A stretch of DNA of 64,000 bases, taken from the NCBI GenBank assembly GCA_003569245.1, contig BGOM01000007.1, forward strand, positions 1 through 64,000. The letters run 5' to 3'. Shown piece after piece: positions 34,785-60,120 of the stretch (positions are counted from its first letter, which is position 1; each line of letters begins with the position of its first letter). Position numbers and translations under genes: made by a program. A model generated the notes under the pieces. That model was not told the DNA's origin. It saw only the letters and a program-made list of their open reading frames with translations, and did not search any database. Source of the stretch: Opitutia bacterium (lineage in GTDB: Bacteria; Verrucomicrobiota; Verrucomicrobiia; Opitutales; UBA953).

Positions 34785-35235
34785 AGGGGGGGGGGGAGGG
34801 CTAGGGAATAGGGAGTAGGTTAGGAAGGCAAGGGGCTGTGATCAGCGGGCCAGTGGACCGGTGGGCAAGGAAAGGCAGCATGCAAAAAAGAGGGACAGGG
34901 CTAGGGCTGGGGCCTGGGCTAGGGACAGGGACGGTATCGTCGCACGAGATGAAGCCAGCTTCCATCCCGTGGTGAGTTTACGGTTACGCCCTGTGCCCCC
35001 GTGTCATCTCGCCACCGTGCCAGCTAGTCCGGCCTCTCCTTCCCCTGAAAACTGACCCTGTCCCTGACCCTCTTTTTGCATCCTCTCTGCCTTGCCCGCG
35101 TGCCTAACCGCCAACCGCTACCCCCCAACCGCTCGCGAACGCCGTTCGCGCCGTTCGGGACCAGTGTTGCTGCTGTTCCGCCATAGGCCCGATTAGCTCA
35201 CGGCCGACCGGGACGGTCAGCCCTACCTGAGCATC
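34785..35235. repeat. Composite intergenic repeat region with a degenerate REPIN
   Basis: No gene is seen. From left to right: the G11 run (34786-34796); GGGCCAGTGGACCGGTGGGC near 34848-34867; AAAAAAGAGGGACAGGGCTA near 34883-34902; AT-richer sequence to 35045; the reverse complement of that purine block (CCCTGTCCCTGACCCTCTTT) near 35056-35075; the TAACCGCCAACCGC block at about 35104-35135; a hairpin of the CGCGAACG/GTTCGCG type; then a degenerate REPIN at 35153-35226 (GTTC in place of GTAG, ending in CTAC). Confidence 0.6.
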
Positions 35236-35266
35236 CAAACAAAAAGGCGGGCCCGGAGGCCCGCCT
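35236..35266 (-). terminator. Intrinsic terminator of the double DUF1080 gene
   Basis: On the minus strand a 7-bp stem GGCGGGC/GCCCGCC (35246-35265) is followed by TTTTTGTTTGG. It lies 23 bases after the stop of the DUF1080 gene and abuts the REPIN. The U-tract TTTTTGTTTGG recurs at the terminator near 60131. Confidence 0.8.
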
Positions 35267-35288
35267 TCGCGGCCGGCTGAAGCGACGG

Positions 35289-36674
35289 TTACTTGCTCAG
35301 GTCGCGCAGCTTGACGTTCTTGAACCAGACTTCGTCGCCGTGCTCCTGGAGCAGGATGTGACCGGACTCCCACTCGCCGAAGTTGGCGCCGAACTTGGGG
35401 TCGGCGTACTTGGATTTGGCGCGGAGGTCGCGGAATTCCTGGGAGGCGCGGTCATAGGCCACGACGAGGCGGCCGTTGAGCCAGTGCTCGACCTTGGTGC
35501 CCTTGGTCACGACGTAGGCGTTGTTCCATTGGCCGATCGGGTTGGGACGCTTGTTCTTGGCGGTGATCAGGTCGTAGAGCGACGAGACCGTGCGGTTGCC
35601 GTCGCGGCCCAGCTTGGCGTCGGCGTGCACGTCGTCGTCCAGCATCTGGAACTCGAGGCCGAACGCGGAACCGGCGCCCTGGTTGAGGGACGGCTGCGCG
35701 TAGTACTTCAGGCCGCTGTTCGCGCCGGTGGTCAGCTTGAAGTCGACCGAGATCTCGAACTGCTTATAGGCGCCGAGCGTGACGATGTCGCCGGCGGCCG
35801 CGGATTCCTTGCCGTCGCCCTTGGCGGTGCGGAGGGTGCCGTCGACGACGGACCAGCCGGCCTTCGGGAAGTCCGGCCCCTTGGCGGAGCGCCAGCCCTT
35901 GGTGGACACGCCGTCGAAGAGGAGCGTCCAGCCGTCGGCCTTCTCGGACTCGGTCAGGGTGTTGTCGGCGACCTCGGTCAGGGTGATGTTCTTCCACTGC
36001 ACGGTGGTGCCGGCCTTGTCCTTGGCGTTGCCGATGCCGTGGACCTGGAAGGCGATGAAGCCGGCGAGGTAGCCGTCGTCGCGGGCGTCCACGCGGGCCA
36101 CGCCGTTGAGCCAGGTGCGGATGCGGTTGCCGACGGCCTCGACCTTGACGTGGTTCCATTCGCCGACCTTGGTGACCTCGCGGCCCTGCTGGGAGAAGGC
36201 GAGGGCGTCGCCGCCGCCGAAGCCCGGGACGATCCAGCCGCGGCGGCCTTCCTCGTAGAGGCCGGCGGACCACATCCGGGCCTGCGTGTCGGGCTTGCGG
36301 ACGTTCTTGGGGTCCGTGTCGATCTCGGCCTGGTAGCCGTGCACGCGCCCGGCGGGGACCTTGACGGTCTTGCCCGCGGCGTCGACGATCTCGGTCGCCT
36401 TGTCATGGGCGTGCGAGCGGAACTGGACGCCCGAGTTGAGGCGCGGGTCGTTCAGGAAATCGTACTCGAGCACGAAGTTCGCGTATTCCTTCTCGGTGGC
36501 GAGGAAGGTGTTCGGCGTGTTGAGCGTCGAGGTGCCGACGAGCACGCCATCCTTGACGGCGTAGCTGGCTTCGCCGCCTTTCTTGGCGAAACCGGTGAGG
36601 TCCTTGCCGTTGAAGATCTCCGCGCCGAAGGAGGCGAGGGGCAGCAGGGCGAGGGTGAGCAGGGTCTTCTTCAT
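35289..36674 (-). CDS. Secreted protein with two tandem DUF1080 domains
   Basis: The 461-residue exported protein has a signal peptide (TLLTLALLPLASFGAE). Domain 1 (about 19-232) opens with IFNGKDLTGFAKKG and domain 2 (about 245-461) with WTLLFDGVSTKGWRSAKG. Each carries the matching late block (WNHVKVEAVGNRIRTWLNG; WNNAYVVTKGTKVEHWLNG). DUF1080 members include 3-keto-disaccharide hydrolases and laminin-G-like binding domains; GRVHGYQAEID and SGLKYYAQPS are family-typical. It is followed 70 bases upstream by the Gfo/Idh/MocA gene on the same strand, a frequent pairing in PVC genomes consistent with 3-ketoglycoside metabolism. The leader reads CGCATACCC just before ATG. Confidence 0.92.
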   Translation of the reverse strand: MKKTLLTLALLPLASFGAEIFNGKDLTGFAKKGGEASYAVKDGVLVGTSTLNTPNTFLATEKEYANFVLEYDFLNDPRLNSGVQFRSHAHDKATEIVDAAGKTVKVPAGRVHGYQAEIDTDPKNVRKPDTQARMWSAGLYEEGRRGWIVPGFGGGDALAFSQQGREVTKVGEWNHVKVEAVGNRIRTWLNGVARVDARDDGYLAGFIAFQVHGIGNAKDKAGTTVQWKNITLTEVADNTLTESEKADGWTLLFDGVSTKGWRSAKGPDFPKAGWSVVDGTLRTAKGDGKESAAAGDIVTLGAYKQFEISVDFKLTTGANSGLKYYAQPSLNQGAGSAFGLEFQMLDDDVHADAKLGRDGNRTVSSLYDLITAKNKRPNPIGQWNNAYVVTKGTKVEHWLNGRLVVAYDRASQEFRDLRAKSKYADPKFGANFGEWESGHILLQEHGDEVWFKNVKLRDLSK

Positions 36675-36744
36675 GGGTATGCGGGTTTGGTAAAAGAGCG
36701 GGGCGGGGCGGCCGTGCGGCCGCCCCGCCCCGGGAGGTGAGGTC

Positions 36745-38298: not shown

Positions 38299-38554
38299 GG
38301 TGGTGGCTTGGGGTGCATCAAACAAAGCAGGCCGAGGCGGGGACAGTCGAGGTTCTTTCGACTTCCAGCGCATTCCCGCCGGCGATCGCCTGGTCATGGG
38401 TTTGTCGTTTTAATACCATGTTGAGGGCTCGGTCATCGTTTGAGACAAAGCCCGCGGATTAGGGTTAACACCCCATTTCAAAAGGTTTGTGACCAATGGT
38501 TTGGCGAACAAATTGCTTCCCATACCTCTCCGGTTGCTTCGATCAATCGGACGC

Positions 38555-38590
38555 GGGGCGGCCTGGTGACGGGCCGCCCCTGCATTTTTA
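38555..38590 (+). promoter_or_regulatory. Terminator-shaped hairpin in the leader of the NYN gene
   Basis: A perfect 9-bp stem, GGGGCGGCC (38555-38563) with GGCCGCCCC (38572-38580) and an 8-base loop, is followed by TGCATTTTT. It ends only a few bases before the ATG of the NYN-domain gene. It could be a leader attenuator or the terminator of a short upstream transcript; no other gene lies in the 296-base divergent gap. Confidence 0.5.
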
Positions 38591-38594
38591 CGAC

Positions 38595-39197: not shown

Positions 39198-39208
39198 GCG
39201 TGCTCAGG

Positions 39209-41220: not shown

Positions 41221-41280
41221 GGTCGCGGGACTACGTCATCCATTGCGTCACTTCCCCCGCCTATGGCAAGCATCGCAAAG

Positions 41281-41502: not shown

Positions 41503-44016
41503 TTACTTGGCGAAACTACGGTAGTCCGAACCCTGCTTCTCCGGCACCACGTTGATCGTGTTGCAGATCTCGTCGGGCACGCGGGTGCCGTCGACGGCCT
41601 TCACGTTCATCTTGATGCGCATCTGCTCGACGGGCTTCAGGCCGGGCACCTCGAGGAAGACCGTCTTGCCGTCGGGGGAGACCTTGACGGACTTGATCGC
41701 GACGGGGTCGGTGCCTTTCTCGCCGGGCTTGCTGACCTTGTAGTCGGCGGAGCCATAGGCGCCGGAGTACAGGTAGTTGTACTGCTCGATCGAGTAGTTC
41801 TGCAGGTCGCCGGCGGACTTCGGGTCGAGGGCGCCGGTGAAGCCGATGGTGATACCCTGCGTGGTGACGTGGAGCGTCTCCTGCATGGTCACGGACTTGC
41901 CGGTGTAGCGGACGCGGTGGATGGCGCCGTCCTTGACGCCGTTGGTCTGCCAGCCCTTGAGGCCGGAGGTGTAGAGCTGGCCGTCGACCGGGCTGAAGCG
42001 GCCGCGCATCTGACCGGTGGTGAACTTCAGCGGGAACTTGACCACGCCGCCCTGGGCCACATCGCCCACGCGTTCCTGGAGGACGCCGAAGAGCGAGGAC
42101 TTGCCGTAGGAGAGGTAGAGCATGCGGCCCTCGAACGGACCCCACTGCTTGCTGGTCACCCAGGTCTGGCCGCCGTTGGAGTTGTCCACGTCGTACGGGA
42201 GCCAGCACAGGTGCGGGGAGTACTTCGTGGGCGCGGGCGTCTGGTGGGAGAGGTCGGGGACCTCGATGAACTCACCCGGCTTGGAGAGGTGGATGTAGTC
42301 GGCCGGCACCCAGGTGCCCTGGTTGTCGCCGTTGGAGATCTCGCCGTTCGGACCGACGCCCATGCCGTTCGGGGCGCGGATGCCGGTGGCGTAAACCTCG
42401 AACTTCTTGCCGTCGGCCGACACCTTGAAGATGCAGCCGTGGTGGTCGCTGAGCGGACCCCAGCCGCGGCCACCCGGATTCACGGGGCCGCCCTTGAGGA
42501 AGTAGAAGTTACCCTGGCTGTCCGTCTGCAGGTCGAAGGTGAACTCGTGGAAGTTCGAGGTGACCTGGACGTCGTTATTGAAGTTCTCGTAGAAGTCGGC
42601 CTCGCCGTCGCCGTCGAGGTCCTTGAGGCGGGTGATCTGGTCGCGACCGAGGACATAGAGCTCCTCGTTGACGACCGTCAGGCCGAGGGCGTGGAAGATG
42701 CCGGTCGCGTGGCGGCGCCAGCTGATCTTGGAGAGGTTGGCGTCGGCGACCTTGCCGATCCAGACGTCGCCGCTCCAGGTCGAGAAGGCGATGCGGCCGT
42801 CCTTGAAGAACGCGAGGGCGCCAACGCGGATCCAGGACTTGTAAGGATTGGTCTCGGGGACGGTGACGTTGTCGACGAGGTAGGGGGCGTTGAGGATCTC
42901 GGCCAGCTTGTCCTGCAGCGCGGCCTTCTTGTTGGCGTCGGTGGCCTTGGCGAGCTGTTCCTTGACCGCGTCGGCCTGCTTGGCCTGGTCGACTTCGCCG
43001 AGGACACCTTCGGTCACGACTTCTTCCTTCCAGTGCGACGCGCCGCCCTTGGTGAAGGCGCGCAGGTCGGTGGGCTTGGCGACGGCCGCGGCGGCCTTGG
43101 CGAGGGTCCCGGCGTCCTTGCCGCCGTGGGCGAAGGAGACCTTGAAGCTCGTGCCGGCGGCGACCTTGCCGAGTTTCAGCGTGAGCACGTCGCCTTCGGT
43201 CGAGAGCGCGCCGGTGACGCCGTGGACGGCGACCGCGGTGGGCAGTTCGTCGCCGGGCTTGCCCTTGGAGAGCGTGAGCGCGGCGGTCAGGCCGTCGGCC
43301 TTCATGGAACCGCCGTAGGGCAGGTTCGCGAGACGGACGGATTCGGCGAGGTCACCGGAGACGACCGTGAAGGAGCGGCTGAGGACCTTGACGCCATCGA
43401 TGGTCTCGAGTTCGGCGCTTTCCAGCAGGCTGGCCCCGCCGACGGTGTAGGCGAAGGTGACGCGATCGCCGGAGAGGTAGAGGCCGAGGTACTTGGAGTG
43501 CTCGCGGGGCAGGGGGCCCAGCGGGATCGGCGACATGACGCCGGCGGGGCCGACGGGTAGCTTGCGGGGGTCCGCGAAGCTGCCGTTCTGGCTCCATCCC
43601 GGGCCGGGGTTGGTCTCGACGTAGAGGTCGGCACCCTCGGCGGGGGCGGGGTTCGGGCCGTGCGCGCCGTCGAAGGTCACGCCCTTGCGCTTGAACCAGC
43701 CGCCGGACCAGAGGCCGGCGCCGCGCAGGGTCTCGGTGTCGAAAGCGAAGCCGGCGTCCTCCTTGCCGAGGTTCACCAGGACGGCCTTGTTGGCGGCGCA
43801 GCCCTTGTTCTCGAAAGGATTCTTGCCGAGCGCGTTGTCGATGGAGGCGCTCAGGAAGCGACCGTAGTCCATGTCCATGTATTTTCCGGTCGGCTTGGCG
43901 GCCTTCTTGGCCTCGGGCTTCTTGGCCTCCGCCTTCTTGGGGGCGTCGGCGGCGAAACCGGTGAAGACCGACAGCGCCAGGGCGCCGAGGGTGAGCAGGT
44001 TACGGGGGGTCGTCAT
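41503..44016 (-). CDS. Secreted propeller protein with N-terminal DUF6797-like domain
   Basis: The product has 837 residues with a signal peptide and a Lys/Ala linker (KKAEAKKPEAKKAAK). An N-terminal domain follows with GKYMDMDYGRFLSASIDN and GPGWSQNGSFADPR, which I associate with DUF6797, then a membrane-bound-dehydrogenase-like propeller (IAFSTWSGDVWIGKVAD, ITRLKDLDGDGEADFYENF, GIRAPNGMGVGPNGE). The C-terminal part (NYSIEQYNYLYSGAYGS) resembles the tail of the 495-residue propeller at 48-49.7 kb. This family commonly accompanies multi-heme cytochromes, and one lies next to it. It may bind or oxidise a sugar; unproven. Confidence 0.88.
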   Translation of the reverse strand: MTTPRNLLTLGALALSVFTGFAADAPKKAEAKKPEAKKAAKPTGKYMDMDYGRFLSASIDNALGKNPFENKGCAANKAVLVNLGKEDAGFAFDTETLRGAGLWSGGWFKRKGVTFDGAHGPNPAPAEGADLYVETNPGPGWSQNGSFADPRKLPVGPAGVMSPIPLGPLPREHSKYLGLYLSGDRVTFAYTVGGASLLESAELETIDGVKVLSRSFTVVSGDLAESVRLANLPYGGSMKADGLTAALTLSKGKPGDELPTAVAVHGVTGALSTEGDVLTLKLGKVAAGTSFKVSFAHGGKDAGTLAKAAAAVAKPTDLRAFTKGGASHWKEEVVTEGVLGEVDQAKQADAVKEQLAKATDANKKAALQDKLAEILNAPYLVDNVTVPETNPYKSWIRVGALAFFKDGRIAFSTWSGDVWIGKVADANLSKISWRRHATGIFHALGLTVVNEELYVLGRDQITRLKDLDGDGEADFYENFNNDVQVTSNFHEFTFDLQTDSQGNFYFLKGGPVNPGGRGWGPLSDHHGCIFKVSADGKKFEVYATGIRAPNGMGVGPNGEISNGDNQGTWVPADYIHLSKPGEFIEVPDLSHQTPAPTKYSPHLCWLPYDVDNSNGGQTWVTSKQWGPFEGRMLYLSYGKSSLFGVLQERVGDVAQGGVVKFPLKFTTGQMRGRFSPVDGQLYTSGLKGWQTNGVKDGAIHRVRYTGKSVTMQETLHVTTQGITIGFTGALDPKSAGDLQNYSIEQYNYLYSGAYGSADYKVSKPGEKGTDPVAIKSVKVSPDGKTVFLEVPGLKPVEQMRIKMNVKAVDGTRVPDEICNTINVVPEKQGSDYRSFAK

Positions 44017-44559
44017 AGGAGGTAGGGTAAAAGGGGAGGACCCGGGGTGGGGCTTTCTCGATTTGAGCCAGCCCCGTCCCCTTGTCCACCGTATTGGAGT
44101 GTTTTTGAGGGGGAAGGTTCCGACTAAGGAGGGCCTGGGTAGAGGCTAGGGCGTGGGCCCGGTTCGAAAGACGTTACTAGGCAGCTAGGGACGGGGGCAG
44201 TGAAACGGGAAGGAAGTATTCGATGTATCAGTGAATGAGTTGGCAGGCGTGCAAGGTAGGGGCAGCACCGCGTGCTGCCCTGGCGAGTGCCCTCTTCGAC
44301 CTAACCGCTGACCGCCATACCCAACCCCTTGCGAGCCCCGCTCGCACCGGTAGGGACCAGCGTCCCTGCTGGTCCGCCGCAGACCCGACGAACTCACGGC
44401 CGACCGGGGACGGTCAGCCCTACCTAATGCCTTTCCCTTCCCCTGTCCCTGACCCGATAGCATTTTGCATGTCCCTTGCCCACGTGCCCACTTGCCGGCT
44501 GGCCAGCTCATCACAGCCCCTTGCTTTTCCTCCGTCGCCCGCCCAGACTATTCTTTTCC
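44017..44559. repeat. Repeat-rich gap with a REP hairpin, a REPIN and other blocks
   Basis: No gene is seen in this gap. A single REP at 44256-44280 is GTAG followed by a GGGCAGCAC/GTGCTGCCC hairpin. The TAACCGCTGACCGC block follows at about 44301-44320, then a GCGAGC/GCTCGC hairpin near 44331-44345. A complete REPIN at 44350-44423 runs from GTAG plus stem GGACCAGC/GCTGGTCC to stem CGGCCGACC/GGTCAGCC plus CTAC. The reverse of the AGGGACAGGG block is at about 44437-44455, and a TGCCCACTTGCCGGCTGGCC block at about 44485-44504. Confidence 0.65.
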
Positions 44560-45012
44560 ATGAGTCGGTTCTACTTTGCCTACGGTTCCAACCTCGACGC
44601 CTCCCAGATGGAGCGGCGCTGTCCGGGGTCGCAGTACCGCGGCAAGGCTTTCCTGCCGAAGCATCGCATGGCCTTCACGCACCCGAGCACGACCTGGGGC
44701 GGTGGTTCGGCCGACATCATCGATGACGAGGGCGCGAGCGGCGTCTGGGGTGCGGTCTACGAATTGACGGCGGACGATTGGCAGCGCCTCGGCGAAGCGG
44801 AGGGCACGGCCTACAAGCGGATCAAGGTCACGGTCCATGAGGCGGGCGTCGAGGATTGCCCGCTGGATTGCCAGGCCTTCCGGGTAGTCGACCCGACCGG
44901 TCCGCACCTGCCTTCCAAGACTTACCACGACAAGATCGTCCGCGGCGCCCTGGCCCGCGGGCTTCCGGCGGGCTGGATCACCTGGCTCCGCGGCCTTTCG
45001 ACCAAGGGTTGA
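44560..45012 (+). CDS. Gamma-glutamylcyclotransferase family protein
   Basis: The 150-residue cytoplasmic enzyme of the GGCT/AIG2-like fold has the family motif YFAYGSNLD at residues 4-12, then the conserved ADIIDDEGASGVWGAVYEL block in which the acidic catalytic region and the GxVY strand are recognisable. Members turn gamma-glutamyl amino acids or peptides into 5-oxoproline. The ATG at 44560 places the YGSN motif at the usual distance from the N-terminus. It ends 2 bases before the tag gene, so the two are probably co-transcribed. Confidence 0.9.
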   Translation: MSRFYFAYGSNLDASQMERRCPGSQYRGKAFLPKHRMAFTHPSTTWGGGSADIIDDEGASGVWGAVYELTADDWQRLGEAEGTAYKRIKVTVHEAGVEDCPLDCQAFRVVDPTGPHLPSKTYHDKIVRGALARGLPAGWITWLRGLSTKG

Positions 45013-45013
45013 G

Positions 45014-45574: not shown

Positions 45575-45780
45575 GCTGGCCGGTGGGCAAGGGGTTGGAG
45601 ACAGAGATACAATAAGGCTCAGGAACAGGATCAGGGGCAGGGGAAGAAAATTAGGTAGGGCTGACCGTCTCGGTCGGCCGTGAGTTCGTCGGGTCTGCGG
45701 CGGACCAGCAGGGACGCTGGTCCCTACCTAGAGGCAAACGCAACACCCCTTGTCCGCCGGCCCACTTGCCCGCCGGCCAG
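45575..45780. repeat. Repeat gap with inverted REPIN copy
   Basis: The gap holds CTGGCCGGTGGGCAAGG (about 45575-45592), a CAGGATCAGGGGCAGGGG block (about 45626-45643), a complete REPIN at 45655-45727 in the reverse orientation to the 44.35-kb copy, and CGGCCCACTTGCCCGCCGGC at about 45758-45777. The outer blocks are inverted with respect to each other. Confidence 0.65.
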
Positions 45781-47097: not shown

Positions 47098-47156
47098 GAC
47101 CGGCCCACTATGAGCCGGTGGCCTGCGCGTGCAAGCCCGGGTCGGCCGCCGCCGGC

Positions 47157-48185: not shown

Positions 48186-48194
48186 GGCAGGGGG

Positions 48195-49682: not shown

Positions 49683-52398
49683 TGGTAGTCGAGGGTGAGG
49701 GTGGTGATGCCGGCGGGGAGCGTGAGCGGGATCAGCACCTCGCCCTCGCGCAGGACCGCCGCGGGCGATGCGATGAGCCGGATCCGTAATTTATCGGCCG
49801 CGTAGGCCTGCGGGCCGGTGGCCGCGACCTTGGTGCCGGCCGCGACGCGGAAGTGGAAGGGCGCCGTGCCGGCGGGCGCCGTGAGCCGGAGGGTCCGGCG
49901 GAAGTAGGCCGCGCCCGCGTCATCGACCCGGTCTTCGAAGCGGTCATCCACCTTTACTTCGCCGTACTCGTAGCGGAAGGTCGGGCGCCGCGCCGCGTCC
50001 AGGTCGTAGCCGCGGAACTGGTAGCCGAGGTTCTGCGGGAAGCCGAAGGTGGTCTTGCCTTTCGCCGGCCAGTTGTCGTCCAGCGACTTCAGGCGATGGA
50101 AAGGGACGCCCGCGGGGAGCGACGCCATCGTGTCGAGCGCACGCGGCTGGAAGGAGCCCAGCTCGACGTTGACGAACTCGCCCTTCCACAGCTGGCGCAG
50201 CGCCATCTCCTCGGTGTCGAAGGCCAGGCTGACACGGCCCGGGTAGCCCACGGCGAGGCCGCGGTAACCGATGCTGCTGCGGCCGCGGGCGATCTCGGCG
50301 ACGTCCGTCACGCGCAGCTCCTTGGACTGGCGGGAGAGGCCGACGGGGTTCCGGGCCTGTTTGCCGGTCTCGAGGTAGCGCCAGAGGGCCTCGATCTGCT
50401 GGTCCGTATCGCCCCCCAGCACATCAGGTCGGAGCGATTTTCCGCCGGGCCAGTAGCTCGGCATGATGATGCCCGGGTGGAAGCGTTGCGGGGCCCGCAT
50501 GTACAGGTGGAACCAGTTCTTCTGGATCCGCTGGGTCAGGTTCACGAGGTCGAGCGCCCCGGCCCCCGCGGATTTCTGCCCGTTGAAATCATGGCACGCG
50601 ATGCAGCTGAAGCCCTTCTCGCCCACCATCTCGTAGCCCGCGTTCCGGGATTCCTGAAGGTTCGCGAGGGGCGGCAACTGCACCGTTTCCAGGTGATCCA
50701 CCTCGGCGAAGAGTCCGATCAGCCGGCGAATATTCGCCTCGCCAAACTGCGGCATCGCCGCGTCGACGTAAGGACGCTGGCGGTGGCCTTGGAGTAGCAC
50801 GGCCTCCAGGCCGGCCGGTGTCAGCTTGGCCCCGACGTCCGACAGGGGCGGAGGCAGGCGGCCCTGGTCGCCAAGGGCCGGCGCGGTGCCGCTGAAGAGG
50901 GCGTTGCGCTCCGGCGGGATGCCACCGAGGCCACGGCGCTCGTGGCAGGCGAGGCAGTTGAGGCGGGCGAGCTCGCCATGGAGGGTCGCCTCGGGCGAGG
51001 CCTTCGCGGCGAGGTCGGCGCGCAGCGCGGCGACGATCCAGCCACGCTGTTCGGCGGAGAGGTCGAAGCGGACGCCGGACAGGCCGCCCGCGTCCAGGCA
51101 GCCGCGCGTCAGGTCAAGCTTGGTCAGCGGCGTTTCTTCCCGCGCTCGCATGCCGAGGTCGTCGTGGCAGTTCGCGCAGGCCTGGGCGAAACGGGCGCGT
51201 CCGCGCTCCGCCTTCGCCGGGTCGAGCGTGGGCGCTTGGAACGGCGCGATGGGCCGATCGGAGATGGAGAGCATCGACCCCGGGATGGGGCCGCGCGGTA
51301 AACCCGGGCCGGCGAGCTCGAGCGTCAGGGAAGGCTCCCGGCCGGTGTGGTAGTAGTCCAGGCGCAGCTTGCGCCAACCGGCGGCCAGCGTGGCCTGGCC
51401 TTCGGCCGCCTGCGGTCCGCGGCGGTCCTTCGGCGCCAGCGTGACGACTTCCTGGCCGTCGATGGTCAGCGTGGCCCCGTTGGCCTTGAGGAAGAACGTA
51501 TGCTCGCCGGCCGACCGGACGTTGATCCAGCCTTCGAAGCGCACCGCCATGTGGTGGTGGACGCGTCCGAGGCTCGCCAGCGCGAAGTCCGCCGTCAGCC
51601 CGGCGCGCTCCGGCTCGACCGCCTCATGGCCGATGCCTTCCCAGACCTGGCCGCGATACATCGTGAAGTGGAGCTGCCCGGGCACGACGGTGTCGCGCAA
51701 CAGGTAGTGGGCGATGCATTCCAGCTCGCGGGCCGGCAGGCGCAGATCGGGCATGCGCAGCGCCGGGCGGCTCACATGTGGTTGGCGCAGGAAGTCGACC
51801 AAGCTCCGCAGGCTGTATTTGCCTTCAAGCGCGCCGAGCGGGACCGATTTCGCCGCCAGCGTCTCGCGGCCTTGGGCGTCGCGCGGGGAGTGGCAGGCCG
51901 CGCAGCCTCGGGCATGGAAGAGTTTCTCGCCTTGGGCGGCGGCCACGGCGTCGGGCGCTTCCGGGACGAAGCGGGACGATCGGGTCGACCGGAGGAACTG
52001 CGTGAGTTCTTCGGCGATGTCCGCGCGCTCGGCGGCCGCCTGGTTCGCGGCGGAGCCAGAGACGGTCCGAAGTGCGCTCGGGCAGGTCGTGCCCGGCTTC
52101 GTCGAGTGCGGGTCGAGGATGAACTTCGCCAGGTAGCCCGGATTCAGCCGGTTCGCCACGTCGGCGAGGCGCGGGGCCTGTTTCGCGGCGGTAAGCGTCC
52201 CCCAGGAGCGCGATGGCACGCCACGCAATTCAGTTCCTCCAGCAGCAGGCGACCCTTGGCGGCGGCCTCGAGGTTGGCCTGGGCGATGCCCGGCAGCGAC
52301 ACCTCGGCGGCAGCCGAGAGGGCGACAAGCACCAGCAGGATCGAAGCGAGTCCCGCGGGGAGACGGCGAGTGGCGGCGGGGTGGGCCGGAGTGGGCAT
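49676..52398 (-). CDS. Multi-heme c-type cytochrome with internal PA14-like domain, frame broken near 52190
   Basis: After repair the protein has 907 residues. A short first frame (52398 to about 52195) gives a signal peptide and heme site CVACH; the rest continues in the next frame. Reading GGGGGG instead of GGGGG near 52190-52200 joins them as CHRAPGGTLTAAKQAPRL. Four more heme motifs follow (CAACH, CANCH, CLACH, CIACH), with a PA14-like stretch between the second and third (VRFEGWINVRSAGEHTFFLK) and a C-terminal beta domain. It parallels the 39.2-41.2 kb cytochrome: five heme sites, PA14, and a propeller partner, which here overlaps by 7 bases. Periplasmic electron transfer is expected. 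Confidence 0.85.
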
Positions 52399-52527
52399 GG
52401 ACCTATTTGGGCCGCGGTCCGGAGGGGTGGCGAGTGGTTATTGATAATCCGGATATTTTCTCCGCATTTTTCGGAGGTTTGAGGGGTTGAATCACGGAAG
52501 CCCTTCCTTATCCCCGATTGTCTCGTA

Positions 52528-53943
52528 ATGAAAGCCCGACTCCTCCTCATCTTCCTCGCTTTGCTTGGTCTGGGCTCCGCGCTCGGGGCTGCGCCGGCGA
52601 CGCCGGCGACGAAGCCGAACATCCTCTTCATCCTCGCCGATGACCTAGGTTTCGCCGAGCTCGGTTGCAATGGTTCCGACCGCTACCAGACCCCGCACAT
52701 CGATGCCTTGGCCAAGGCCGGCGTGCGTTTCACCCGTTTCTACACCGCCCCGCTGTGCGGCCCGTCGCGCGCGTTGATCCTGACCGGTCGCTACGCTTTC
52801 CGTACCGGCGCCGTCAGCCAGGATGCGTGCAAGACCGTCGTTCGCACCGGCGAGAAGGCCGAACGGATGATCCCCACGGTGCTCAAGCAGGCGGGGTACG
52901 CGACGGCCATGATCGGCAAGTGGGGCCAGCTTTCGCCCTCGGGCGATCCGGCCGAGTGGGGGTTCGACCATGACTTTCATTTCAAGGGGAGCGGCATGTA
53001 CTGGAACAGCAAGGTCGCCAAGCCGATGTCCGAGGGCGGGCAGGTGCGCGGCGACCCCGACAGCTATGTCATCGACGGCAAGACCATCAAGGTGAAGGAC
53101 GACGAGTATATCCCGGATCTCCTGCACAAGGACGCGACGGCCTGGCTGGAGGCTCATCGCCATGGACCGTTCTTCCTCTATTACTCGATGTCGCACGTGC
53201 ACGGCGAGATTCTGCCGACGCCGGACAGCGCGCCCGCGCCGAAAGGCGAGACCGAGGAGGCCCGGCGGAAGCGTCATTATGCCGACAATATCGGCTATAT
53301 GGATAAGCTGGTCGGCAAACTGATGGCCGAGCTCGACCGGCTCAAGTTGCGCGAGAACACCCTGATCGTGTTCATGGGGGATAACGGCAGCGCCAAGCCG
53401 AACGCGCCCGACGCGACCATCGGCGGCCGCCGGATCGAGGGCGAGAAGGGTTCCATGAAGGAAGGCGGCGGCCTCGTGCCGTTCTTCGCCACCTGGCCCG
53501 GCGTCACCCCGGCCGGCAAGGTCAACCCCAACGTCGCCGACGCGAGCGACCTCCTGCCGACGTTCGCGGAGCTCGCCGGGGCGCCGCTGCCCACCGGCCG
53601 CGTGATCGATGGTCGCAGCCTCGTCTCCCAGCTCAAGGGTGCCGATACGTCGCCGCGGACCTGGGCTTATTGCCAGTTGAGCAACAATTACTATGTCCGC
53701 GAGGCGGGCTGGAAGCTCGACCAGGCCGGCACTTTATACGACATGAAGGATGCTCCGTTCAAGGAGCTGGCCGTCGCGGCCGACACCAAGGACCCGGCCG
53801 CCTTGGCCGCCCGCGAGCGTCTGGCCGCCGCCCTGGCGGGCTTGAATCCCGCCGCCGGCCATAAGGACGAGTCGGGCGACGGCTCGGGTCGCAGCGCCGG
53901 CAACGAGAAGAAGAAGGGCAAGAAGGCCAAGGAGGCCAAGTGA
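52528..53943 (+). CDS. Secreted sulfatase with Lys-rich C-terminus
   Basis: The 471-residue exported protein has a signal peptide (LLIFLALLGLGSALGAAP), metal site ADDLGF (37-42), formylglycine motif CGPSR (C77), GDNGSAKP and a C-terminal tail rich in Lys (EKKKGKKAKEAK). The usual GKWHLG block reads IGKWGQLS, with the conserved His replaced by Gly, so activity may differ from canonical arylsulfatases. The upstream gap is AT-richer (TTATTGATAATCC) and probably holds the promoter. The stop overlaps the start of the GDSL esterase gene (GTGA), so the two are probably coupled. Confidence 0.92.
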   Translation: MKARLLLIFLALLGLGSALGAAPATPATKPNILFILADDLGFAELGCNGSDRYQTPHIDALAKAGVRFTRFYTAPLCGPSRALILTGRYAFRTGAVSQDACKTVVRTGEKAERMIPTVLKQAGYATAMIGKWGQLSPSGDPAEWGFDHDFHFKGSGMYWNSKVAKPMSEGGQVRGDPDSYVIDGKTIKVKDDEYIPDLLHKDATAWLEAHRHGPFFLYYSMSHVHGEILPTPDSAPAPKGETEEARRKRHYADNIGYMDKLVGKLMAELDRLKLRENTLIVFMGDNGSAKPNAPDATIGGRRIEGEKGSMKEGGGLVPFFATWPGVTPAGKVNPNVADASDLLPTFAELAGAPLPTGRVIDGRSLVSQLKGADTSPRTWAYCQLSNNYYVREAGWKLDQAGTLYDMKDAPFKELAVAADTKDPAALAARERLAAALAGLNPAAGHKDESGDGSGRSAGNEKKKGKKAKEAK

Positions 53944-54655
53944 GCGCCATGCTTTGCCGTGCCCTGCTAGCCCTCGGTCTTTCGGTCGTCGGCGTCCTCG
54001 CCGCGGACGAGGTGCTGACGGATAAATCCACCTCCGCGAAGGTCCTGGCGCTATACCAGAAGACCCTGGCCGCCGCGCAGAAAAGTCCGCCCGCGCCGGG
54101 TGCGGTCATCTGCATCGGTAGCTCCCACATGCAGTTCTGGAAGAGCGTCCAGGAGGATCTCGCCCCCCTGACCGTCCACAACTACGGCATCGGGGCAGCC
54201 GCATGACGCAGGCCGAGGAGTACTTCATCGATAACCTCGCGATCGCCTTCAAGCCGCGCGCCGTGATCCTCTACGAGGGCAGCAACGACATCAATGCCGG
54301 CACCAAGCCGGCGACGGTGCTCGCCAGTTTCCAGCGGCTCCAGCGCAAGTTGCACACGGCCTTGCCCGAGGCGCGGCTGTACGTGCTCGGCGTCGTGCCA
54401 AGTCCCGGCAAGCGGTTCGAGAAGTTCGCCGAGCTCAAGCAGGTCAACGAGCTGCTCCGGGCCGAATGCGCCACGCAGCCTTGGATGAAGTTCATCGACA
54501 CGACCACCCCGCTCCTGGGCGCCGATGGCCAGCCGCGGGAGGAACTCTTCAAGCCTGGCGACATCCACATGGTCCCGGCCGGCTATGCCGTCTGGAAGTC
54601 CGTCATCGCCCCGGTGATCGTGCCGGCCGAGAAGCCCTTTGAGAAGGCGAAGTGA
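53940..54655 (+). CDS. SGNH/GDSL-family esterase, frame broken near 54197
   Basis: If repaired the protein has 238 residues with a signal peptide (LLALGLSVVGVLAADE). Block I is ICIGSSHMQFW, with the nucleophile Ser in the GSS position, as in the GDSL_2/acetylhydrolase-like group of this phylum. Block II should follow VHNYGIG, but the frame ends in AAA-stop at 54206; the continuation MTQAEEYFIDN lies in the next frame. One more G in the GGGG at about 54190-54195 gives GIGGSRMTQ, the canonical block II. Block III LYEGSNDI and the late DIHMVPAGY (catalytic Asp/His) are intact. Coupled to the sulfatase, it may deacetylate the same glycan (inference). Confidence 0.83.
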
Positions 54656-54919
54656 GGGAGGGGAGGGGGGTCGGGGAGGGCTGAATCGAGTGCTGGGTCG
54701 AGTACGGAGGGCTGAGTCGATGGGGCTGCATGAGGTAGGGACCAGCGTCCCTGCTGGGCCGCGGCCGACCGGGGACGGTCAGCCCTACCGATTGCCTGCC
54801 CCACCTGGTGCCCGGCCAACTGGCCAACGGATCAGCGGGTCAACTGTCCGCTGGTCGGACCTACCTCGAGGAAAGATTCGAGGCCTTGTCTCCAAGGCGG
54901 TCGGGACTAGCGTTCCAGG
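54656..54919. repeat. Repeat gap with a short REPIN
   Basis: A GAGTGCTGGGTCGAGTACGG-type block (about 54688-54707), with GGGCTGAGTCGATGGGG after it, precedes a compact REPIN at 54735-54788 that lacks the central spacer of the 44.35-kb copy. CGGCCAACTGGCCAACGGAT follows (about 54813-54832), then CAACTGTCCGCTGGTCGG. The same order (GAGTACGG block, then REPIN) recurs at 55.7 and 59.8 kb. Confidence 0.6.
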
Positions 54920-55692
54920 ATGCGCCGCCTGCCCCTGCTCGCCCTGACCATCGCCACCCTCGCCGCCGCGGAGGAGGAGCCGAAGTGGTTCCCGCTCTTC
55001 AACGGTAAGGACCTCTCGGGTTGGACGCCGAAGATCGCCAAGCACTCCTTGGGTGAGAACTACGCGAATACCTTCCGGGTCGAGGACGGCATGATCAAGG
55101 TCTCGTACGACGGCTACCCGAAGTTCGAGCAGCGCTTCGGGCATCTCTTCACGAACCTCTCCTACTCGCGCTACGTCCTGCGGATGGAATACCGTTTCGC
55201 CGCAAGATGATGGCCGACGCCCCCAAGTACGTAAACCTCAACAGCGGCGTGATGATCCATGCCCAGCCTCCGCAGAGCATGCGCTTCGACCAGGGCTTCC
55301 CGAGCAGCCTCGAGTTCCAGTTCCTCGCTGACGAGGGCAAGGGCGACCGGCCCACGGCGTGCGTCTGCACCCCCGGCACCAACCTCGAGCTCGACGGCAA
55401 ACTCGTCACCCAGCACATCATCCAGTCCAAGGCGCCGACCTTCCCGGCCGATCAGTGGGTGCAGATCGAGGCCGAGGTGCGCGGCAACGATGAGGTCATC
55501 CACCGCGTCAACGGCGTCGAAGTCCTCCGCTACCAGCGTCCGCAGCTCGACCCGCGCAATCACATCTCGCCCGCGACCGACCTGTTGGACGCCGGTGCGG
55601 ACCTCCAGCTCGGCTCCGGCCACATCGCCCTCCAGGCCGAAGGCCAACCCGTCTGGTTCCGCAAGATCGAACTCCGTCGGTTGGGGAAGTGA
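54920..55692 (+). CDS. Secreted DUF1080 protein, frame broken near 55198
   Basis: If repaired this is a 257-residue exported DUF1080 (3-keto-disaccharide hydrolase-like) protein: signal peptide, FPLFNGKDLSGWTPKI opening, RVEDGMIKVSYDGYP, then after the break LNSGVMIHAQPPQSM, EFQFLADEG and the late VNGVEVLRYQRPQLD. The first frame ends YRFAAR-stop at 55210, while KMMADAPKYVNLNSG continues in another frame. One more G in GCCGC near 55196 restores RFAGKMMADAPKY, the usual bridge in this family. A 264-base repeat gap separates it from the GDSL gene upstream. Confidence 0.83.
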
Positions 55693-56135
55693 GGGGTGGG
55701 GAGCGGAGTACGGAGTAAAGATTGCGGAGTACAGAGGGTGGAGGGCTCATTGCGGAGGGTAGCGTTGAGTGCTGGATCGAGTACGGAGGGCTGAGTCGAT
55801 GGACTGAATGAGGTAGGGACCAGCGTCCCTGCTGGTCCGCGGCCGACCGGGGCCGGTCAGCCCTACCTGATGGGCCTTGGCACGGGGTCAGGCACGCCAT
55901 CGCTGAGCGAGGCGAAGCCAGACCCCATGCCGGCGGCCCTGCCTGCCTCCCCGCGTACCTAAACACCACTCGCTATCTCCCGCCTTAGGTGAGCCCATCG
56001 CGGATCTTCAACCCGTTGGGTTCCTGGTTCGGTTGCTGGTGGTTGTCCGAATCATCCGTGGGCGCTCAGAAGGCCCTTGAACCGTCACGTTCTTTGTCAG
56101 GCTTTTTGTTAGAGTTCCGCTATCAGCACGAAGCC
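55693..56135. repeat. Repeat gap: GAGTAC block, REPIN, and a separate hairpin module
   Basis: No gene is seen. GAGTACGGAG/GAGTACAGAG units and GCTGGATCGAGTACGGAGGG occupy about 55700-55800. A compact REPIN follows at 55813-55866. A structured module at about 55885-55928 opens GGGGTCAGGC and closes AGCCAGACCCC around a TCGCTGAGCGA hairpin. The rest, to 56135, shows only short spurious frames. Confidence 0.6.
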
Positions 56136-56169
56136 AAAAAGACGATAACCCATTCATGGTTATCGTCTT
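56136..56169 (-). terminator. Intrinsic terminator downstream of tRNA-Ser
   Basis: Reading the minus strand, AAGACGATAACC and its perfect complement GGTTATCGTCTT enclose a 7-base loop and are followed by TTTTTGG. It is about 190 bases beyond the 3' end of the minus-strand tRNA-Ser gene, so it probably ends that transcript. Confidence 0.75.
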
Positions 56170-56170
56170 A

Positions 56171-56197
56171 GTTCCAGCTGGCGGAGAGGGAGGGATT
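56171..56197 (-). repeat. Partial copy of the tRNA-Ser 3' end
   Basis: A 27-base stretch ending GGCGGAGAGGGAGGGATT matches 56350-56376 with two mismatches. It covers the CCA end, acceptor strand and part of the T arm of the tRNA-Ser gene, in the same orientation, 179 bases away. Direct repeats of tRNA 3' ends are typical of attachment sites or of decayed tandem tRNA copies. Confidence 0.6.
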
Positions 56198-56357
56198 GGT
56201 TCGCTTCGCTCAGGGCTGCCGCCCCGTTGCCTGTGGCAACGCCCATCTCCGCGAGGCAAGCCTCGCTCCGTCGAACCCAAGGGTTCTCATCCCTCGGGGG
56301 GCGGAAAGGGTCCGATGGACTTTCATGGTGAGTTAAGTCTATCGAGCCGGTTCTAAC

Positions 56358-56445
<88 letters not shown>

Positions 56446-56559
56446 TTGTTGACCAGCTAGAAGGTGCATCAAAGGCAGGGAGGGGGGTGGGTCAAGGGAG
56501 AAGAAAGGACGCACGAAAGGCCCATGAAAAGGGCACGGGACAGGGAGAGTGCGTGGGGC

Positions 56560-56618
56560 GGACGAGCAGGGACGCTCGTCCCTACCTCTGGATACCAGGG
56601 CAGCACGCGGTGCTGCCC
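56560..56618 (-). repeat. Two tandem single REP hairpins
   Basis: On the minus strand, GTAG (56582-56585) is followed by stem GGACGAGC/GCTCGTCC (56560-56581). This is the REP arm of the REPINs with a C-to-G change compensated by G-to-C on the other side. Directly beside it, a GGGCAGCAC/GTGCTGCCC hairpin lies at about 56598-56618, preceded by GTCG. The pair ends 8 bases before the glnS stop. Confidence 0.6.
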
Positions 56619-56625
56619 CGACCCA

Positions 56626-58299
56626 TCACTTCGCCGCCAATTTAGCCCAGGAGTCCTTGAGGCCGACGGTGCGGTTGAAGACGGGCTTGCCGGGCTGCGA
56701 GTCCTTGGCGTCGACGCAGAAGTAGCCGGTGCGTTCGAACTGCACGCGCGTGGCGGGCGCGAGGGCGAGGAGGGCGGGTTCGACCTTGCCGCGGATCACG
56801 GAGAGCGAGCCGGGGTTGAGGAGGGTGCGCCAATCGACGCCTTCGGGGATGTGGTTGAGGTCCTCGTGCGAGAAGAGGCGGTCGTAGAGGCGGACCTCGA
56901 CGTCGCCGGCGTGCGCGGCGGAGACCCAGTGGATCGTGCCTTTGACCTTGCGGCCGTCCGGGGCATCGCCGCCGCGGGTGGCCGGGTCGTAGGTGCAGGT
57001 GACCTCGGTGACGTTGCCGGCGGCGTCCTTCTTGCAGCCGGTGCAGGTGACGAAGTAGCCCCAGCGCAGACGGACCTCCTGGCCGGGGGTCAGGCGGAAA
57101 TACTTCTTCTCCGGGATCTCCATGAAGTCGGCCCGCTCGATGAGCAGGGTCTTGGAGAAGGGCACCTTGCGGGTGCCGGCGGAGGGGTCCTCGGGGTTGT
57201 TGGTCGCGTCGAGCTCCTCGACCTGGCCCTCGGGGTAGTTCTCGATGACGAGCTTCACCGGGTCGAGCACCGCCATGAAGCGGGAGGAGGTCTTGTTGAG
57301 GTCATCGCGGACGGCGTGCTCGAGCAGGGCGACGTCGGAGAGGGAGTTGTGCTTGGTGATGCCGACGGTCTCGCAGAAGCGGCGGACGGCGGCCGGGGTG
57401 TAGCCGCGGCGACGCATGCCGGAGATGGTGGGCATGCGGGGGTCGTCCCAGCCGGCCACGCGCTTCTCCTGCACGAGCTCGAGCAGGCGGCGCTTGGACA
57501 TCACCGTGTAGGTGAGGTTGAGGCGGGCGAACTCGATCTGCTGGGGCTTGGCGGGGGTGTCGAGGGTGCGCAGGAGCCAGTCGTAGAAGGGGCGGTGCAC
57601 CTCGAACTCAAGGGTGCAGATGGAGTGCGTGATGCCCTCGTAGGCGTCCTCGAGCGGGTGCGCGTAGTCGTACATCGGGTAGACGCACCAGGTGTCGCCG
57701 GTGTTGTGGTGGGACGTCTTGCGGATGCGGTAGATGACCGGGTCGCGCATATGCATGTTGGGCGACGCCATGTCGATCTTGGCGCGCAGCACGGCCTTGC
57801 CCTCGTCGAACTCGCCGCGGGTCATCCGGGCGAACGCCTCGAGATTGGCGGCGACGGTGGCGTCGCGGGTCGGGCTCGGCTTGCCCGGGGTCTTCTCGTC
57901 GCCGTGGTGGGCGCGGATCTCCTCCTGGGACAGGAAGCAGACGTAGGCCTTGCCCAGCTCGATCAGCCGGATGGCGTCGGCGTGCATCCGCGCGAAGTAA
58001 TCGGACGCCTGGTAGTAGTGCGGGCCCCAGTCGAAGCCGAGCCAGCGGACGTCCTCCTTGATCGAGTCGACATACTCCACCTCCTCCTTGGCGGGGTTGG
58101 TGTCGTCCATGCGCAGGTGGCAGCGTCCCTTGAATTCCAGGGCGAGACCGAAGTTGAGGCAGATCGACTTGGCGTGGCCGATGTGGAGGTAGCCGTTGGG
58201 CTCGGGGGGGAAGCGCGTGGCGATCGCGGCGTGCTTGCCGGCGGCGAGGTCGGCGTCGACGATCTGCTGGATGAAGTGGCGGTGCGTTTCCGAGGACAT
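56626..58299 (-). CDS. glnS: Glutaminyl-tRNA synthetase
   Basis: Class Ic synthetase that charges tRNA-Gln directly. The 557-residue product shows [16 protein letters not shown] (HIGH motif near 30-45), RMDDTNP, the KMSKS-equivalent VMSKRRL, and the C-terminal anticodon-binding beta barrels ([14 protein letters not shown], then [15 protein letters not shown] and a late RTGYFCVD). The ATG at 58299 is chosen over an upstream in-frame ATG because it gives the standard [10 protein letters not shown] start. It is divergent from gltX, with a 16-bp inverted repeat in the shared 138-base upstream region. A direct GlnRS means glutamine tRNA need not depend on the amidotransferase route. Confidence 0.96.
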
Positions 58300-58331
58300 G
58301 GCGGCGGGGCGGGCGGGGTCGCCCAAGCCCT

Positions 58332-58432
58332 AGGAATAGACGGAAAGGCCTCGGAAGGGAAAGGGGAATGTGGGGCGGGGCCCGGGCGCCGCTTAAATAA
58401 CTTCCCCTTGGCTCGGCTTTCCGTCTATTCCT
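58332..58432. promoter_or_regulatory. Shared inverted leader motif between glnS and gltX
   Basis: The 16-base sequence CTTTCCGTCTATTCCT occurs at 58417-58432 on the plus strand, 5 bases before the gltX ATG. Its perfect copy at 58332-58347 on the minus strand lies 32 bases before the glnS ATG. Flanking bases are also similar (CTTCCCCTTGG against CTTTCCCTTCC). Both divergent genes thus carry the same element in the same sense, suggesting a common promoter or regulator site. AT-rich GCTTAAATAAC lies between. Confidence 0.5.
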
Positions 58433-58437
58433 TGGGC

Positions 58438-59793
58438 ATGTCCACCGTCCGCGTGCGTTTCGCGCCCAGCCCCACCGGGTTCTTCCATATCGGCAGCGCC
58501 CGCACGGCCCTGTTCAACTGGCTCTACGCCCGGCACACCGGCGGGAAGTTCATCCTGCGCATCGAGGATACCGACAAGGAGCGCAACTCCGACGCCTTCC
58601 TGCAGGTGATCCTGGATTCCATGCGGTGGTTGGGGATGGACTGGGACGAAGGTCCCGGCGTGGGCGGCGATTTCGGTCCGTACTTCCAGTCCCAGCGCAA
58701 CGAGCTGTACCGCGCCAAGCTCCGGGAGCTGGCCGACAAGGGGCGGGCCTACGAGAAGGACGGCGCCTGGTGGCTGCGTCTCGAGGGCGCCCGCTCGACG
58801 GTCTTCGACGACCACCTGAAGAAGGAAATCGAGAAGGTCGACGCCGCCCCGATGGTGCTCGATGACCTGGTCCGTGGTCGCGTCGAGCGCGCCGAGGACC
58901 GCGACTTCGTGATCTTCCGCTCCAACGGCGAGCCGGTCTTCCATTTCGTCAACGTGGTCGACGACATCGAGATGAAGATCACGCACGTGATCCGCGGCGA
59001 GGACCACCTCTCCAACACCTCGAAGCACCTCGAGCTCTTCAAGGCCTTCGGCGTCGAGCCGCCGAAGTACGCCCACATCCCGCTCATCCTCAAGACCGAC
59101 GGTCCGGGCAAGATGTCCAAGCGCGACCGGGGCGCCCTCATCGAGGAATACCAGCAGCGCCGCTACCTCCCCGAGGCCGTGCGCAACTACCTCTGCCTGC
59201 TCGGGTGGACGCCCACGGACGGGCGCGAGGTCCTGCCCATCGCCGACATCATCGCGCAGTTCGAGGTCGGCGCCGTGCACCAGTCCAACGCCCGGTTCGA
59301 CGAGCGGAAGATGGCGAACGTCAACATGCAGACGCTCCGCGCCTTGCCCCCGGCCCAGTTCGCCACGCTCGCCCGCCCGGTGCTGGCGGACGCCGGCGTC
59401 ATCGATGCCCAGGTGACCGACGCCCGCCTGCAGGAAGTCCTCGCGGTGGTCCAGGAGAAGGCCGTCTCGCTGGAGCACCTGCCCGACTTCGTGCGGTTCT
59501 TCTTCACCGACGACTTCAAGAAGGACGAGAACGCGCTGGCCAACCTCACCAAGAAGGGCGGCGATCCGCAGGCCCGCGTGGCCGAGATCCTGCCCGCCCT
59601 CGCGGGCTGCGAATGGACCGAGCCCGCGATGGATGCGGCCTTCGCCGCCGTCGGCGCGGCCCAGGGCCGCAAGCCGACCGACTACTTCGCCCCGGTGCGC
59701 TTCGCCGTCTCCGGTCAAGGCGGTGGCGCCCACCTGCAGGGTGTGCTGCGCGTCCTCGGCAAGGAGAAGGTGTTGAAGCGGTTGAAGGGGTGA
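58438..59793 (+). CDS. gltX: Glutamyl-tRNA synthetase
   Basis: Class Ib synthetase that charges tRNA-Glu. The 451-residue product carries [18 protein letters not shown] (HIGH-type motif, 9-26), [11 protein letters not shown], the [12 protein letters not shown] block and GKMSKRDRG (KMSKS). The C-terminal helical anticodon-binding region ends [13 protein letters not shown], typical of non-discriminating or discriminating GluRS alike. The start at 58438 is the ATG before [13 protein letters not shown]; the frame stays open far upstream only as the antisense of glnS. Divergent from glnS across a shared regulatory gap. Confidence 0.96.
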
Positions 59794-60120
59794 GGGGGTG
59801 GGGAAGAGAGAGTACAGAGTACAGAGTACAGAGTGCAGAGTACAGAGTACGGAGGGCTGGATCGAGTGCTGAGTCGATGGGAGGCAGAGGGGGCAAACTG
59901 GTACGGTGACACGGGGGCAAGGGCTTACCTGTTGCCTCCCGTCGCGCGCTCAGCGCGCGGGTAGGGACCAGCGTCCCTGCTGGTCCGCGGTATGTGAGAG
60001 CCGACATGAGGTCAGGTACGCTATCGCTACGCGAGGCGAAGCCAGACCCCATGCCGCGGCCGACCGGGACGGTCAGCCCTACCTGAGTCACGCCGGGATG
60101 CGGCCGATCAACGGGTCGGC
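59794..60120. repeat. Repeat gap with a REPIN carrying a nested insertion
   Basis: No gene is seen. GAGTACAGAG units are repeated in tandem at about 59807-59850, followed by GGCTGGATCGAGTGCTGAGT (about 59853-59872). A GCGCGCT/AGCGCGC hairpin sits at 59944-59957. The REPIN starts with GTAG at 59961 and ends with CTAC at 60082. Between its two arms is about 65 extra bases holding GAGGCGAAGCCAGACCCC, the same hairpin module that stands alone at about 55885-55928. Confidence 0.65.

Follow-up and report, generated by a model that had tools for sequence, protein, structure and literature searches.

Heterodimeric GTAG REPINs in an Opitutia genome and the RAYT-hairpin pairs of its genus

The window, a 64,000-nt stretch of an Opitutia bacterium genome (contig BGOM01000007.1, assembly GCA_003569245.1), contains a family of paired hairpins. 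The full element comprises an A hairpin, a spacer and a B hairpin with GTAG at the outer ends, the layout of a heterodimeric REPIN. Five inverted REP pairs with both tags pointing outward and one decayed pair were found in the window. The original prediction had placed six elements here, and on re-reading all six lay where predicted: five run from GTAG to CTAC, the first starts with GTTC, and the copy at 45655-45727 is inverted. A lone A arm and two REPs of a different family (C family), absent from that prediction, were also identified.

35153..35226, + strand: decayed REPIN; A arm with its tag now GTTC and its pairing gone, B arm 35202-35226 (-) intact
44256..44280, + strand: C-family REP, GTAGGGGCAGCACCGCGTGCTGCCC, 69 nt ahead of the 44350 REPIN
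44350..44423, + strand: REPIN; A arm 44350-44375 (+), spacer of 22 nt, B arm 44398-44423 (-)
45655..45727, - strand: inverted REPIN; B arm 45655-45679 (+), spacer of 22 nt, A arm 45702-45727 (-)
54735..54788, + strand: compact REPIN; arms 2 nt apart, A stem with one mismatch
55813..55866, + strand: compact REPIN; arms 2 nt apart
56560..56585, - strand: lone A arm with a compensatory stem change, GGACGAGC/GCTCGTCC
56598..56622, - strand: C-family REP with its tag mutated to GTCG, 12 nt from the lone A arm
59961..60082, + strand: long REPIN; A arm 59961-59986 and B arm 60058-60082 (-), separated by a foldable 71-nt spacer

The spacer of the decayed copy is akin to the 22-nt type, and at the orthologous site in a related genome, G014, the A arm is intact with GTAG. 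G014 also carries the 59961..60082 REPIN in the same long form. In relatives, the C-family hairpin GTAGGGGCAGCACCGCGTGCTGCCC was found flanking RAYTs, the REP-associated tyrosine transposases that are taken to move REPINs.

A fuzzy scan of the window recovered arm A at 0-2 edits at 44350, 45702(-), 55813, 59961 and 56560(-), and arm B at 0-1 edits at 35201(-), 45655 and 60057(-), together with two chance-level matches at 6 edits; it did not pick up the arm variants at 44398, 54735, 54763 and 55841, which were listed separately. First-order Markov versions of the window (10 trials, up to 6 edits) gave 0-2 matches to A and 0-4 to B. Since Markov sequence yields them, lax matches at 6 edits are no evidence by themselves, and the near-exact matches are. 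Such lax matches are what speaks for palindromes having arisen by chance in a genome of 68% G+C. That explanation is already refuted and carries virtually no probability: arm A (GTAGGGACCAGC, up to 3 mismatches) has 41 matches in the 2.45 Mb assembly of the same genome (G000), the genome-wide count that the original prediction had called for, and the same pattern read backwards has 0. In addition, an identical 26-mer, with one Y allowed, is present in four named genomes.

Each copy was folded as single-stranded DNA and compared with 200 shuffles, a check put forward in the original prediction. Five of the six copies beat most shuffles, with z ranging from -1.44 to -3.25 (the latter for 59961..60082) and 0 to 20 shuffles doing equally well, and the decayed copy at 35153-35226 folded no better than its shuffles (z 0.13).

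In the scanned stretches 54 A and 34 B arms were listed, 87 of the 88 outside genes predicted with a crude home-made gene caller. As the definition of a GTAG REP asks (stem-loop of 6-13 bp), GTAG lies at the foot of a stem-loop repeated in the genome, and it is kept in 52/54 A arms and 29/34 B arms; the base preceding the tag is G in 87/88. Facing pairs with GTAG outermost and a separation of at most 150 nt include 22 of the 54 A arms. No facing partner lies within that distance of 32/54 A arms and 12/34 B arms; other A-B neighbours stand tail to tail (11) or in tandem (2). Arms are strongly clustered, 28 of 35 gaps between neighbours being under 5 kb against 3.9 expected. The proposal of a REPIN family is thus borne out by the number of copies, by their GTAG/CTAC ends and facing hairpins, and by their location outside genes.

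Only two other genomes, G014 and G040, have at least 8 arm-A matches. The tag is mutated in 4 of the 8 pattern matches in G040 and in 2 of the 41 in G000, where 16 are identical. G016 gave 64 matches to the A model and 93 to the B model, overlapping counts that mostly represent a sister family flanking the RAYT of G016 itself, and G019 (99% complete) gave 20 B-model matches. Viral spread of the arms was dropped as a candidate when the exact pattern was found in 0 stretches of viral_contigs.

The A and B arms have the stems GGACCAGC and GGCTGACC and a TCCC loop in common. Within 15 heterodimers, including L130 and L132, loop identity was 68/75, compared with 39.2 on random re-pairing. Compact and spacer-containing forms exist side by side, as originally reported: at one site G000 has the compact form and G040 a form with 96 nt more. 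Judged from this one site, for which we infer the direction of change, compact copies look most simply like spacer deletions between short GCGGC repeats.

Other sites were compared with the relatives for insertion, loss and duplication. At the sites of 44350..44423 and 45655..45727, G040 has a spacer between matching flanks that lacks the REPIN, and the spacers have diverged. G040 is also without the entire ~1.8 kb (54296-56092) that holds the 54735 and 55813 copies. At the site of the lone A arm (56560-56585), the G040 tag reads GTTA. The G040 spacers compared were too diverged to provide a clean single-element empty site, the L073 pair reaching only 0.75 identity. Segment duplication probably made some copies, because those at 54735 and 55813 have ~45 nt of upstream flank in common.

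The mobilising enzyme was sought with three models. PF01797 alone was insufficient as a RAYT test, since it misses the RAYT L149, and a genus RAYT profile and NF047646 were therefore added. The RAYT that was suggested to lie elsewhere in this genome and to move the family was not found: the PF01797-like search proposed with that suggestion and the two further models all gave 0 matches in G000 (assembly 91% complete), so that by these models none of the genome's REPs flanks a RAYT of its own. We make no claim of a complete REPIN/RAYT system in this genome. Short RAYTs were likewise absent from G014 (91% complete) and G040 (97% complete), and G019 was RAYT-free by all three models despite its B-model matches. 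G014 and G040 also encode long Y1 proteins (316-331 aa), which were rejected as mobilisers: G000 has none of them, and GTAGGG hairpins are nearly absent around them, the sole one in stretches L163-L165 being a B arm in G014:C15 at a distance of about 1.6 kb.

Short RAYTs were detected at E<=1e-12 in 28 of 55 genomes of the genus, and all 45 distinct RAYTs examined have GTAGGG hairpins alongside. In 43 of these a hairpin with a stem of at least 8 lies within 450 nt; for L166 and L167, the remaining pair, a looser finder placed one on either side. As expected of RAYTs, the genes carry an HUH motif (MPDHxH, used to select the 45, in 45/45), a W-Q region (45/45) and a Y..NP.RA motif (Y-NP in 43/45), and a match of the genus profile to 4er8 TnpArep was obtained (E 4.7e-15). 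Every hairpin type held by two or more RAYTs (8/8) corresponds to a single RAYT clade with starred support, and over a dozen RAYT lineages occur in the genus, every one paired with hairpins of its own. The hairpin pairs most similar to those of the window flank RAYTs L149 and L162 in two relatives, and both proteins score above the NF047646 cut-off. The original prediction had made the family's case depend on a RAYT in the genome or its relatives, and it survives because same-genus relatives have RAYTs beside sister REPINs. A few RAYTs are also near hairpins of other families (L131, L158).

We regard it as highly probable, from sequence comparison, that these elements are heterodimeric GTAG REPINs, facing hairpins with unlike mid-stems and the same loop, and that a RAYT moves them in single-stranded form. 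Behind this reading stand the observed anatomy, the number of copies and their location outside genes, the way RAYTs and hairpins pair across the genus, and the decay of some copies. The RAYT would recognise the GTAG tag and the hairpin apex and the elements would move through it as single strands; an enzyme of the L149/L162 clade may have made the family, and in the present lineage may have been lost or lie within the unassembled part. Deletion between GCGGC repeats would then give the compact copies. Several observations run against a RAYT-moved family: the missing RAYT in G000 and missing short RAYTs in G014 and G040, the many unpaired arms, the other-family hairpins near L131 and L158, the lack of a clean empty site, the loss from G040 of two window copies along with 1.8 kb, and the flank shared by two copies.

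Some of these points would suit an orphan population: the ancestor that G000, G014 and G040 share would have lost the cognate RAYT, leaving repeats that survive and multiply solely through slippage, recombination and segment duplication, or else through cross-mobilisation by a different RAYT. The absence of RAYTs from G000 and G019 and of short RAYTs from G014 and G040, the copies with common flanks, the clustering and the mutated tags of G040 favour it, while the incomplete G000 assembly counts against it, as do the few mutated tags and 16 identical copies there, which suggest recent activity. We give it somewhat less than an even chance; as an orphan population is a state of the same system, its odds overlap with those of the preferred explanation. 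That the elements are instead immobile RNA-level features under selection, terminators or mRNA stabilisers, is very improbable. Their extragenic position, the 19/54 A arms between convergent genes, stems with G-T pairs and a compensatory change, and a downstream gene more often on the strand opposite the A arm (33/52) agree with such a role. However, 10 A arms sit between divergent genes, the upstream gene is on the arm's strand in just 28/52, and Rfam at gathering level over 34000-61000 returned tRNA only. A scan of 44000-60500 found no terminator at the elements, and terminator or promoter function was rejected because nothing turned up there.

GTAG repeats have already been published from Verrucomicrobia, including O. 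terrae (Di Nocera et al. 2013, PMC3733652), contrary to the earlier suggestion that the phylum had no described family of this kind. Those families resemble the present one: a short stem-loop has GTAG at its base, dimers, heterodimers among them, keep GTAG on the outside, spacers are of several types and clusters are extragenic, and in O. terrae some dimer partners are 1-2 bp apart (PMC3733652). Comparison with O. terrae GTAG-17, -19 and -20 was by description rather than by consensus sequence. The REPIN/RAYT system of Pseudomonas fluorescens SBW25 (PMC3116915) shares inverted REP pairs and arrays in coherent orientation, and differs in that here no RAYT was found in the genome and the two arms differ in sequence. 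The genus RAYTs lie between their own REPs as in the TnpAREP REPtrons. The S. maltophilia and Marinomonas enzymes are sensitive to the bases of the loop (PMC6006769, PMC8266576), whereas the loop rule here is deduced from hairpin pairs. E. coli genomes also hold REPINs without a transposase gene; that study compares strains with and without RAYT within the species, and here there is one genome per species (PMC8049555).

The family is ordinary in itself; its genus setting is useful. With more than twelve RAYT lineages and their own hairpins in one genus, the bases read by a RAYT can be tested by swaps of natural partners, and genomes with repeats and no RAYT pose the question of how such populations persist. 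IS200/IS605 transposons insert on the lagging-strand template. The unlike A and B arms give every element an orientation, so that the same question can be put to REPINs. A wider proposal, rather unlikely at present, is that the REPINs of the genus are directional (an apex shared for one RAYT, unlike mid-stems, insertion polarity relative to the fork) and that at least one clade amplifies through a borrowed enzyme without a RAYT of its own.

Replication polarity was assessed from GC skew adjusted for gene strand, a weak measure, at a threshold of 0.02 of our own choice. The G016 sample comprised 44 of the 64 model matches (at least 31.4 bits), with an own-family match omitted; no stretch lay near 8 of the 35 G016 sites, and weak skew removed 24 of the 59 sites for which a skew value was available. 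Of the remaining 35 sites, 28 had the A arm on the C-rich strand (G000 16/19, G016 12/16), which is no more than a hint of a lean toward that strand, because sites within one stretch are not independent. Counted by hand per stretch, 12 leaned toward the C-rich strand, 3 leaned against it and 2 were split.

The hairpin-pair repeats of the window form a REPIN family that is new but belongs to a known type of system, and whose transposase was not found. All six elements of the original prediction are present at exactly the predicted positions, together with a single arm that it had overlooked. Arm A consists of GTAG followed by GGACCAGCG-TCCC-TGCTGGTCC, and arm B of GTAG followed by GGCTGACCG-TCCC-CGGTCGGCC. 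The elements, named by their start, are:

35153-35226, decayed element, one of the six
44350, A-B element
45655, A-B element, inverted
54735, A-B element, compact
55813, A-B element, compact
59961, A-B element, long
56560, single A arm

The five doubly tagged elements have gaps of 22, 22, 2, 2 and 71 nt between A and B. The long copy folds (z -3.25), and longer spacers hold an additional folded segment. The single A arm has a tRNA gene roughly 115 nt away: tRNA-Ser(GGA) at 56358-56445 (-), the only one that ARAGORN found in the window.

Opitutus terrae is presumably the verrucomicrobium abbreviated to O. terrae in a published survey of GTAG families. That survey reports such repeats in it and describes 24 families, with HH dimers, heterodimers, spacer types and REPtron loss (PMC3733652). 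No paper on the REPs, REPINs or RAYTs (REP-associated tyrosine transposases) of this genus was recognised in the open-licence literature.

The genome-wide arm search proposed with the original prediction was run on the window's own assembly, G000 (2.45 Mb, 24 contigs, 91.3% complete). Arm A gave 41 matches at up to three mismatches and the backward-read control pattern none, so that near-exact arms exceed chance; Markov versions of the window gave a few arm matches at 6 edits. Covariance models returned 66 A-type and 50 B-type matches at E<=0.01, in lists that overlap slightly (C4:11128 is in both) and whose weakest members may belong to other families. Arm A was found at up to two mismatches in 5 of 55 genus genomes (G000 41, G014 34, G040 8, G016 1, G023 1), with no control match in any genome. 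A 26-mer with one Y was found in four named genomes, titled Opitutae or Verrucomicrobiota, in a scan that may omit records of the window's own genome. The arm A pattern was not found in viral_contigs. The 64 A-model and 93 B-model matches in G016 mostly represent a sister family, of the type found at RAYT loci L149 and L162.

In G000 stretches fetched for their A matches, 54 A and 34 B arms were listed. Twenty-two A arms are paired with an inward-facing B arm no more than 150 nt away, the GTAG tags outermost, at gaps of 2 nt (six), 22 nt (two) or 50-117 nt (fourteen), leaving 32 A and 12 B arms unpaired; other A-B neighbours lie tail to tail (11) or in tandem (2). The tag is GTAG in 52/54 A arms and 29/34 B arms, and is preceded by G in 87/88. 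In several places a third hairpin, C (GTAGGGGCAGCACCGCGTGCTGCCC), is separated from A by 13-14 nt; it is a family apart, present in 47 of 55 genus genomes with 37 copies in G000. Intergenic mosaics of further short repeats (ACTCCGTACTCTGTACTC, CCCTCGTGTCCTC, GGTCAACTGGTCAAC) surround the REPs at 54690-54734, at 55765-55812 and in many G000 spacers, and differ between close relatives.

By a simple hexamer gene caller, 87/88 arms lie outside genes; the A arms are in codirectional (23), convergent (19) or divergent (10) settings, with one in a gene and one at an edge. The 46 A sites are clustered, 28/35 neighbour gaps being below 5 kb versus 3.9 expected at random when 13 contigs lacking listed arms are treated as equal pieces. 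Within several clusters the A arms share a strand regardless of gene direction (C15 and C19 minus, C2 plus); uniformity is absent in the window and C14. Same-strand A neighbours number 15/21 in G000 (permutation p 0.03) and 15/23 in G016 (p 0.08), where all nine merged A sites of contig C1 are plus. Separately, a lean of the A arms to the C-rich strand hints at fork-linked insertion, which is described for IS200/IS605 (PMC6006769). REP arrays of coherent orientation, on opposite chromosome sides, had been reported earlier for SBW25 (PMC3116915).

The RAYT that the original prediction placed elsewhere in the genome was not found in the 91.3% complete assembly by PF01797 (Y1_Tnp), a five-row genus profile (E<=1) or NF047646. 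PF01797 gave matches in 51/95 genomes searched, and the genus profile gave 55 rows from 28/55 genomes at 1e-12. NF047646, applied to 8 genomes, gave no match in G000 or G019, and only proteins of 316-331 aa below the cut-off in G014 and G040. REPINs without a RAYT are reported for E. coli genomes (PMC8049555). G019 (99% complete), with 20 B-model matches (e.g. GTAGGGCTGACCGCCCTCGGTCAGCC in L213) and no RAYT by the three models, is another RAYT-less repeat population. Order-level relatives G080, G068, G073, G081 and G092 have 13 to 41 Y1_Tnp matches apiece.

Forty-five distinct RAYTs, 44 of the genus and one of a different genus in the same family, were chosen by the MPDHxH motif and read; L135, which lacks it, was excluded, and some of the 55 profile rows are not among them. 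A GTAGGG hairpin lies within 450 nt of 43/45 by a strict rule and of the other two by a looser one. In the RAYT tree, each of the 8 hairpin types common to more than one RAYT forms one clade with starred support; labels were assigned by hand, long branches were warned of among singletons, and L149 and L162 have one arm in common but not the second. Judged by eye, the hairpin pairs of L149 (G016) and L162 (G004), whose RAYTs score above the NF047646 cut-off, are nearest to the window's.

Thirteen hand-picked heterodimers were compared at the loop (positions 13-17) and mid-stem (positions 7-11). The arms agreed in 59/65 loop cells versus 34.5 on re-pairing, and in 35/65 mid-stem cells versus 27.1. 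With two omitted pairs added (15), agreement was 68/75 versus 39.2 for the loop, reached by 0/20000 re-pairings, and 40/75 versus 31.3 for the mid-stem, reached by 262/20000; thus mid-stems are somewhat alike too, and loops far more. Excluding the window family left 63/70 versus 36.2 for the loop. The L144 pair is an exception to the shared loop. We infer that one RAYT reads the tag and loop of both arms, which fits experiments in which the enzymes of S. maltophilia and Marinomonas, unlike that of E. coli, required loop bases (PMC8266576).

The family has a good comparative setting. Syntenic stretches of G014 are mostly 91-98% identical; there the A arm of 35153 is intact (decayed in G000), 59961 has the long form as in G000, and contigs end at or near 44350 and 45655. 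In an 18-kb syntenic stretch of G040 the hairpin finder detected no GTAGGG hairpin, and the 56560 arm is kept with a mutated tag. G040 lacks 44350 and 45655, with conserved flanks, and also 54735 and 55813 plus about 1.8 kb. One further site, compact in G000, has 96 nt more inside in G040, flanked by GCGGC repeats. Mutated arm A tags number 4/8 in G040, 1/34 in G014 and 2/41 in G000, so the population looks fresher in the latter two. The stretch between the compact REPINs resembles accessory DNA enclosed by direct repeats, since 54296-56092 is missing from G040, and in G016 and G041 its place holds different DNA or none. These same-orientation copies (54735-55866) flank a reading frame that is broken, with one part at 54920-55210 and the other, in a different frame, at 55207-55692. 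G040 also has about 2.2 kb that the window lacks, at L206:10185-12384 (G040:C11); the parts on its two sides are syntenic to window positions 47155 and 47077.
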